Assembly: GCF_000340565.2 (NCBI RefSeq)
Contig: NZ_CP007203.1
Coordinates: 3,516,699 to 3,563,275 of the forward strand
Direction: 5' to 3'
Origin: Nodularia spumigena CCY9414
GTDB taxonomy: Bacteria > Cyanobacteriota > Cyanobacteriia > Cyanobacteriales > Nostocaceae
Length of the DNA stretch: 46,577 bases
The notes beneath the pieces are model-generated. The model was not told the origin of the DNA. It ran no database searches and worked only from the letters and a program-made list of their open reading frames with translations. Below are positions 10,555 through 24,450 of the stretch, one piece after another (positions within the stretch are counted from its first letter, which is position 1; each line of letters begins with the position of its first letter). The position numbers were made by a program, and so were the translations under genes.

Positions 10555-10640
10555 CTGCTAGATAAATACTAGACAAAGCTAGACATTTACTTCTTACGTC
10601 AAAGGGAGCATGGGAGCGGTTATCCCTCGGTAAGCGTTCA
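10555..10640 (-). ncRNA. Possible omegaRNA (TnpB guide RNA) 3' segment
   Basis: TnpB elements make a guide RNA from the end of tnpB and the right end of the element. Here the sequence just after the TnpB stop (minus strand GAGGGATAACCGCTCCCATG) is shared, with few changes, by the ORF-less copy at 24181-24230. That conservation outside coding sequence is what a structured RNA would give. No folding or expression evidence is available. Confidence 0.3.
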
Positions 10641-11717
10641 AGGTTTAGCCAACCTCGATAAAACTATTGCTGCGTTTAAATCTCTGTCCATTGAATGCCC
10701 ACAATTTTGGCAATTGTAAACTCTTTCTGAAAGTGGCATATCTTGAATATGTCCACAATTGGAACAGGTTTTGGTCGATGGAAACCAACGGTCAGCAATG
10801 ATTATTTCACAACCAAACTTCTTAGCTTTGTATTCTAGCTGACGCTTGAATTCATAAAATCCGCAATCAGCAATTACTTGAGCTAATTTATGATTAGATA
10901 GCATCCCTGAAACATTCAAATTCTCTACGACTATCTTTGCGTGGTTTTTGCATAAGTAAGTAGTGATTTTGTGAAGGGTATTCTTTCTCAAGTTAGCTAT
11001 CTTGGCATGGTGTCTAGCTAATGTAATTTTAGCTTTATACCTATTGTTGGAACCCTTGATCTTTCTGGCGAGTTTCCTAGAAAGTCTTTTAAGTTTTCTC
11101 AGGTTAGTTTTGTAGTGTTTGGGGTTAGGAAATACTACACCTGTAGAAAGAGTAGCTAATTCTTTTACCCCAATATCCACACCTACAACTTCATACTTTT
11201 TAAGGGTTGGTTCATGCTCTTGTTCATAAGCAAAGGCGATAAACCAACTGTCAGCAGTACGAGATATAGTGATTGATTTACAAGTGGTATGCGGTAAACC
11301 TTCGTAAGCAAAACGACACATTCTATCCTTATGAGCTATGACAATAATTGCGATTTCGCCTTGAAGCATAGACATCATAATTGATAAGAACTTCTTTCTT
11401 TTAAAGTTCAAGCCTCCGCCAATTTCCGATACCCATTCGTCAACAGCTAAACCCCTATTTAAACAAAATGTTTCCATAGCGGTGATTTGATTCCTCAATT
11501 CCGGTTTCTGTCCATTAGAAGAAACGCGACAATAAACGATATTTTTACGATGTTGCTCTGTGGGTTTTAATCCCTGAATAATCAATAAGTCGTTCTCTGT
11601 ATAAAACCGATGCCCCGATGGTGTTCTTTTTGCTGGTAATTTTCCAGAATTGTCCCATCTTTGTAGTGTTTTAACAGAAACTCCAATTTTCTCGGCAAAT
11701 TCATGTGGTTTAAACAT
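10638..11717 (-). CDS. In-frame fusion of IS607 TnpA (serine recombinase) and TnpB (RuvC nuclease)
   Basis: Residues 1-45 are the MerR-like helix-turn-helix of IS607 TnpA (FAEKIGVSVKTLQRWDNSGK). Residues 58-138 are the serine-recombinase domain, with catalytic Ser66 in YCRVSSNGQ and IAHKDRMCRF. At about residue 140 the sequence jumps to TnpB (KSITISRTADSWFIAFAYE). TnpB then runs to its end: RuvC-I Asp181 in GVDIGVKELAT, RuvC-II Glu265 in VVENLNVSGM, a CxxC...CxxC zinc ribbon at 318-339, and RuvC-III MDRDLNAA. Missing are the end of TnpA and the N-terminal RNA/DNA-recognition part of TnpB. The natural reading is a deletion that happened to keep frame. All three RuvC acidic residues and the recombinase serine survive. 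Function is unlikely but not excluded. Confidence 0.85.
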   Translation of the reverse strand: MFKPHEFAEKIGVSVKTLQRWDNSGKLPAKRTPSGHRFYTENDLLIIQGLKPTEQHRKNIVYCRVSSNGQKPELRNQITAMETFCLNRGLAVDEWVSEIGGGLNFKRKKFLSIMMSMLQGEIAIIVIAHKDRMCRFAYEGLPHTTCKSITISRTADSWFIAFAYEQEHEPTLKKYEVVGVDIGVKELATLSTGVVFPNPKHYKTNLRKLKRLSRKLARKIKGSNNRYKAKITLARHHAKIANLRKNTLHKITTYLCKNHAKIVVENLNVSGMLSNHKLAQVIADCGFYEFKRQLEYKAKKFGCEIIIADRWFPSTKTCSNCGHIQDMPLSERVYNCQNCGHSMDRDLNAAIVLSRLAKP

Positions 11718-11816
11718 AAATACACTTAGATATTTGTCTATAAGTGTATAAGTATGTCTATTTAATTGTCAACTTAGGATAGCTCATTGCTTAATTTTTA
11801 ACGTAACGCCGTAATT

Positions 11817-11839
11817 CCCCATCCCTCTACAGGGTGGGG
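11817..11839. other. GC-rich stem-loop between IS607 and the kinase gene
   Basis: CCCCATCCCT pairs with AGGGTGGGG across a CTAC loop with one bulge. There is no T tract on either side, so it is not a classic terminator. It resembles the end hairpins of IS200/IS605 elements and may be another transposon relic. Confidence 0.35.
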
Positions 11840-11895
11840 ATGTGAGTCAGAAGGCGACGAAACCAACTCCGACCAATTAAGCAGTTCTTGGGGTA

Positions 11896-24150: not shown

Positions 24151-24450
24151 CTGCTATATAAAACCTAGACAAAACTAGACTTTACTTTCTACTTCAACGG
24201 GAGCATGGGAGCAGTTATCCCTCAGTAGACTTTCACGCCTTAGCCAGACGCGATTGTGTTCCAATTAAGTTTCTGAAAAAGACTACCACCATCATTGCTT
24301 GGTTTTCGCGTCGGCAATAGTCTCAATTCAATACTTGATATCACCGTATTATATATCAAGTAGTTGATTTTTTCCTAAAATATATATTGATTTTTGTCAA
24401 TATAAGTATAGTTTTGTCTATGAAATTGTCAACTTAGGACTTGCTCATTG
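24151..24450 (-). mobile_element. IS607 deletion derivative (ORF-less, MITE-like)
   Basis: The right-end sequence (CTAGACAAAACTAGAC, GGGAGCATGGGAGCAGTTAT) and the left-end sequence (AATTGTCAACTTAGGA, GCTCATTG) match the IS607 element at 10550-11790, in the same orientation, but only about 300 bp separate the outer edges. The minus strand keeps a stub of the TnpB C-terminus (RLAKA and stop, near 24239). No recombinase or nuclease remains. It would need a related element in trans to move. Its left edge covers the start codon of the next gene. Confidence 0.65.

Follow-up and report, generated by a model that had tools for sequence, protein, structure and literature searches.

A chimeric open reading frame is found in the window, the stretch of 46,577 nucleotides from Nodularia spumigena CCY9414 that was analysed here. 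Its front part comes from TnpA, the serine recombinase of IS607-type elements, and its rear part from the RNA-guided nuclease TnpB. Very probably, the DNA that carries it arose by internal deletion from a recently active element of the IS607 family, is non-autonomous, is moved in trans and encodes the chimera as an inactive by-product. One 658-bp deletion created the chimeric ORF by restoring one frame by chance; in this scheme, the TnpA of intact copies in the same genome would move the deleted element in trans. The reRNA (omegaRNA) of the deleted element could guide the intact TnpB to the empty donor sites of that element, and the chimeric protein would be a by-product, inactive and too young for decay. 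The features are collected in Table 1.

Table 1. Features of the deleted element and of the miniature element (window positions).
Feature	Position	Strand	Basis
Full extent of the deleted IS607 element (1231 bp), ends at 11785 (left) and 10555 (right)	10555..11785	-	Both ends common to intact copies and 296-bp miniature element
In-frame fused ORF, 359 aa, TnpA 1-137 + TnpB 137-358	10638..11717	-	ORF, Pfam, alignment to intact copy
TnpA portion: MerR-type HTH and first half of serine recombinase domain	11307..11717	-	Pfam, alignment
TnpB portion: WED tail, whole RuvC, zinc ribbon	10641..11306	-	Pfam, alignment, structure model
Deletion joint, 658 bp missing against intact copies, 1-nt overlap	11302..11309	-	Alignment to intact copies
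Left end, putative TnpA-binding end by analogy	11718..11785	-	Sequence common to intact copies
Right end with candidate reRNA (omegaRNA) gene, overlapping 3' end of ORF	10555..10661	-	48-row alignment
296-bp IS607-type miniature element, one copy in window	24151-24446	-	Ends like those of deleted element

The genome itself (5.46 Mb) provides the parents. Three intact copies of about 1.89 kb encode a TnpA of 216 aa and a TnpB of 358 aa, and the fused version differs from them by a single deletion whose two sides overlap by 1 base. This deletion removed the region coding for the TnpA C-terminus and the 5' portion of tnpB. A frame-preserving deletion had been proposed in an earlier note as the simplest cause of the fusion, and the comparison with the three intact copies confirmed it. 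The loss of 658 bp puts the TnpB frame into the TnpA frame, for which a random deletion has a chance of 1 in 3. Both the left and the right end common to the intact copies are present, as in the IS607 family, and TnpA stops at residue 137 of 216, so that the complete serine recombinase (core and helix E) of that family is absent. Like IS607, IS1535 and ISC1926, the element has an N-terminal HTH before the serine recombinase domain, a right-end reRNA and, in its intact copies, the order tnpA-tnpB; unlike them, it has one internal deletion that leaves neither enzyme complete. MITEs and Ds- and KP-type elements are internally deleted, non-autonomous derivatives of transposons. The window element resembles them in that its ends are kept, its inside is deleted, intact helpers reside in the same genome and more than one insertion site is likely, but differs in the long in-frame chimera left by the deletion. 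Because both ends and the reRNA gene are kept, the element should be movable in trans by the TnpA of the intact copies. Promoter-like hexamers in the left end, at 11772 and 11743, are no more than expected by chance.

The fused ORF is open across all 359 aa with no stop codon, as had been reported. Pfam recognizes MerR (residues 6-39), Resolvase (60-137, covering only profile positions 2-79 of 145), OrfB_IS605 (162-274) and Cas12f1-like_TNB (287-352). When aligned to an intact copy of the same element, identity to TnpA extends to residue 137, and residue 138 onward corresponds to TnpB from its residue 137 with 1 residue different; the junction, formerly placed near residue 140, therefore lies directly after residue 137. 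On the TnpA side, Y62, R64, S66, D131, R132 and R135 are kept, and the residues around S66 and D131-R135 are presumably the serine recombinase active site. On the TnpB side, D181, E265, D344-R-D346 and Cys 318/321/336/339 remain. All the key residues that had been listed (Ser66, Asp181, Glu265, the RuvC-III DRD and four Cys) are thus present. The description of the TnpB part as the whole RuvC and zinc ribbon was also right. That of the other part as the DNA-binding and catalytic part of TnpA claimed too much. The sequence of the MerR-type HTH is intact, but only about half of the catalytic domain is there, the cut falling where helix D begins.

What the fused protein has lost can be read from its structural relatives. 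In the alignment to the IS1535 TnpA domain (6dgb, chain numbered 51-193), F136 of the fused protein corresponds to F126 of IS1535, which is placed just before helix D in the published description of that domain (PMC6188088). The same source describes a dimer interface made of helices B and D. It also describes an IS1535 TnpA without helix E alone, which is defective for paired-end complexes, a little being formed at very high protein, and which still forms complex 1 on the right end (PMC6188088). Helix D, beta-4 and helix E are all missing from the fused protein. In the model of intact TnpA, helix D spans 132-147, the next strand 151-155 and two further helices 162-182 and 189-200, and nearly all of this is lost in the fusion; in an alignment of 11 TnpA rows, 15 of the 50 invariant columns fall in the lost part. 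On the other side TnpB 1-136 is gone, in agreement with the claim that the N-terminus of TnpB is missing. This removes REC and over half of WED, the boundary being extrapolated from the ISDra2 alignment (fused residue 167 = ISDra2 178). In the account of ISDra2 TnpB cited here, WED comprises 1-12 and 117-176 and REC 13-116, and Y52A, K76A, Q80A and T123A, TAM-recognition mutants within the region lost here, abolish cleavage (PMC10097598). The fused protein is like ISDra2 TnpB and Cas12f in its RuvC I-III residues and its CxxC...CxxC, and unlike them in being without REC and more than half of WED and in having a serine recombinase piece in front. Judged from these alignments, about half of the recombinase fold is missing and both enzymes are incomplete. 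Since the chimera is without parts needed by both enzymes, it is most likely an inactive by-product.

The surviving RuvC triad and zinc ribbon might instead suggest an active new enzyme, either an HTH-directed RuvC nuclease or a fused transposase, that drives its own spread. In the AlphaFold model of the fused protein, the RuvC part (171-359) has a pLDDT of 79-95 (means of ten residues), and it matches TnpB structures, the Foldseek hits being 8iaz, 8h1j and 8exa. Such an enzyme is nevertheless highly improbable, given the missing half of the recombinase fold, the missing REC and WED parts and its occurrence, in the searches made, in one species only, without divergence. The TnpA part of the model has low confidence, but the comparison with intact TnpA is confounded: the pLDDT of the HTH also falls from 73-90 in intact TnpA to 30-43 in the fused protein with its sequence unchanged, and the fused-model alignment had 11 TnpA rows among 53 (52 used of 123 prepared). 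This low confidence may reflect the thin alignment rather than the cut.

Truncated transposases of deleted elements act as repressors elsewhere, as in the case of KP of the P element. By analogy, the fused protein could be a trans-acting repressor whose HTH binds IS607 ends and blocks the intact TnpA. The sequence of the HTH is intact, the active-site residues that precede the cut are present, deleted copies lie beside intact ones in one genome, and complex 1 formation by the IS1535 protein without helix E is in keeping with residual binding to a right end. On the other hand, helix D belongs to the dimer interface and helix E serves cooperative end binding, and without them the protein is less likely to bind the ends strongly; the paired-end defect of the IS1535 protein points the same way. 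In addition, the fusion was not found in other genomes searched and is too young for a selection test. A repressor, as proposed in the earlier note, is reasonable in kind and possible, but nothing favors it over the by-product reading, and it is regarded as unlikely.

The age of the fusion is indicated by how little it has changed. Between the two complete fused copies, all 1232 shared bases agree. Over the shared ~1.23 kb, one fixed difference separates the fused version from all three intact copies, with 1-2 differences from each; the fused base at this position is the base in a relative in G001, and two more positions differ, each in one intact copy alone. Of the two options offered before, that the fusion is very young or that it is under selection, the first is borne out by the single fixed difference from the intact copies, and for the second the differences are too few for a selection test. 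Youth accounts for the absence of stops in the fused ORF and no other explanation is needed, although an intact frame would also be expected of a functional protein.

The same junction had been suggested to be sought in related genomes, and in the searches made it was not found beyond the own genome. A 32-base joint sequence, allowing up to 3 mismatches, matched three times in the own genome and in no other of the 388 genomes of the order (1/388), and a 25-base version had no exact match in viral contigs. A protein search of 5 genomes of the genus and 386 of the phylum gave, among the matches listed, one-piece TnpA-through-TnpB matches only in the own genome. In the phylum, 42 of 386 genomes matched at E<=1e-72 and at most the best 5 candidates per genome were scored; the only exceptions listed were matches that began at query 88-126 and lay in open frames as long as a usual TnpB. 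Likewise, a TnpA search of the 388 genomes of the order, in which 98 matched at E<=1e-40 and at most the best 7 candidates per genome were scored, gave no further TnpA-TnpB frame among the matches listed. Among plasmids, 146 records matched and none covered more than 80% of the query. Among phages, 33 of 411 matching records reached 80% coverage by tblastn, the best 20 of the 33 all in two pieces, and none of 21 did so by blastn. Searches of these kinds would miss distant fusions. Among the papers listed for IS607 TnpB fusions, no title or abstract opening reports a TnpA-TnpB or IS607 serine recombinase-TnpB fusion.

At the 142 loci examined, the ORFs containing both TnpA and TnpB were those of the fused places in the own genome (six loci, three places) and one ORF that crosses a run of N (L017), which was rejected. 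Several other candidates were dismissed on inspection. L010 matches query 95-357 at 52% identity and resembles a second fusion, but it is an ORF for TnpB alone, the N-terminal part of which aligned by chance. The "596-aa" TnpA+TnpB frame of G062 (L194-L197) consists of TnpA, a stop codon and TnpB in the same frame and does not count as a fusion. The 734-aa TnpA frame of G028 (L212, 1927-4131) is a tnpA remnant, to about residue 192, followed in frame by a PAS/GGDEF/EAL-like signaling gene (domains by eye). A 534-aa TnpA frame in G388 crosses a run of N, and one of 304 aa in G316 owes its length to an extension upstream. The G062 arrangement occurs in four near-identical copies, and read-through of its stop would yield a TnpA-TnpB protein of 596 aa. 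In L198 of G265 the two genes are arranged likewise, and tnpA is interrupted by an additional stop.

The earlier note had allowed that the fusion might be unique to this copy, or an assembly error joining two ORFs. Neither fits simply: the joint is assembled at three places in the own genome, two complete and the third running into N, and these appear to represent about two sites. Both flanks of the window copy match one locus of the sister genome G003. That locus has no copy of the element; its matched flanks stand 258 bp apart, with unrelated sequence in between, so it is no clean empty site. In G001, the one sister genome compared for this site, the sequence left of the third place continues directly, with no duplication, into that right of the second. 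In three sister genomes, 16-31 bp lie between the counterparts of the second place's left flank and of one intact copy's right flank. By these flanks, the second and third places seem to be the halves of a single insertion site that inter-copy recombination or mis-assembly has split. The three independent fused copies first counted are cut to about two insertion sites by this comparison with sister species. About two sites with the same joint imply that the element has moved at least once since the deletion, as far as the assembly can be trusted; such a move is probable and holds only if more than one fused copy is real.

At several copies the assembly has runs of N, and flanks are swapped or duplicated at repeats; the number of fused copies, and the pairing of flanks with versions, are uncertain for this reason. 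Together with the exact identity of 40 scored miniature-element copies (below), as collapse could give, these faults raise the question whether the joint or the copies are artefacts of collapsed repeats. The overlap at the joint is only 1 nt, which is not what a mis-join of k-mers would give; both complete fused copies differ from all three intact copies at a base 336 bp downstream of the joint; and both flanks of the window copy match a single sister-genome locus. An artefact is quite unlikely on these grounds. Repeat copies with one common flank and a different other flank were also seen at L031, L033 and L036, and at L217/L233 and L218/L219/L225; such sharing reflects either recombination between copies or assembly mis-joins.

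An adjacent reRNA is present at the right end, as expected beside TnpB. The RNA used by IS607 TnpB is a right-end reRNA (omegaRNA), as described in PMC10711439, and it is by position that the structured RNA of the deleted element is identified with it. Of 52 right ends found among relatives with a TnpB identity of at least 69% and a readable end, L073 and L109 (odd ends) and L072, L074 and L103 (near-duplicates) were left out and the window was added, giving 48 aligned right ends (47 distinct). The predicted structure, which covariation supports, has 25 pairs, and 98.6% of cells are paired, compared with 92.4% when shuffled and 37-58% when slid, the structure being favored by its prediction on the alignment used to score it. 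Cells with two-sided changes number 72 against 16.6 in shuffles, and 9 pairs have two-sided changes against 6.3, a value reached by 12 of 500 shuffles; further pair types (22 against 21.9) show no excess. At the gathering threshold, Rfam found only a tmRNA in the window. With its ends and this predicted guide RNA, the deleted element keeps what cis function would need.

A wider role could be imagined, in which a spreading derivative makes a chimera whose HTH, not RNA, directs the RuvC nuclease to IS607 ends, where it represses or scavenges sibling copies, and the derivative's own reRNA recruits the TnpB of intact copies for its preservation. Such a double parasite of both IS607 enzymes, making its own regulator, is very unlikely. 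With the by-product reading, the chimeric-enzyme candidate is removed, and the case shows how ORFs of this kind come about, when a deletion derivative that is still young has restored a frame by a chance of one in three.

Loss of enzymes is seen in relatives too. Of the 80 loci from named genomes (L061-L140), 63 have a near-complete TnpB and 46 of these are at least 69% identical. Among the 42 of the 46 with 1 kb upstream (4 were dropped), TnpA is intact in 4, a remnant in 16 and absent in 22. A near-complete TnpB without intact TnpA is thus found at 38 of 42 loci, a count in which TnpA-only copies are under-represented since the loci were found mostly by TnpB peptides. From these sequences, loss of tnpA with tnpB intact appears to be a common fate among the relatives examined. 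The cyanobacterial tnpA-less, tnpB-bearing relatives are likewise derivatives of the IS607 clade of the window element, but they keep a whole TnpB, whereas the window copy is broken in both enzymes. The derivatives keep both ends and the reRNA and drop enzymes (here both, in most relatives only TnpA), which hints at the parts of IS607 that are required in cis.

The miniature element in the same window is more interesting than the fusion itself. At 296 bp, it is too short for tnpA or tnpB, and its ends match those of the deleted element at 79% over 58 bp and 82% over 97 bp. Its 34-base core has 70 exact matches in the own genome and none in four congeners, even when up to 2 mismatches are allowed. 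The best 40 of 128 candidate copies are identical over 296 bp, and two further copies are 99.0 and 99.7% identical. The right end folds into hairpins similar to the reRNA, and the right flanks, the would-be guides, are 19 different sequences in 20 copies, one being common to two copies. Each copy would then carry its own guide, and the copies would possibly form a guide RNA set served by TnpB in trans. Flanks common to some copies are a warning of rearrangement or mis-assembly. A miniature element with many copies and a reRNA-like right end offers a direct test bed for the support of non-autonomous elements by TnpB in trans. Beside the insertion of the deleted element, at ~11797-11877 of the window, lies a hairpin-rich sequence with similar stretches in sister genomes, which we take to resemble an IS200/IS605-type end or a palindromic element.
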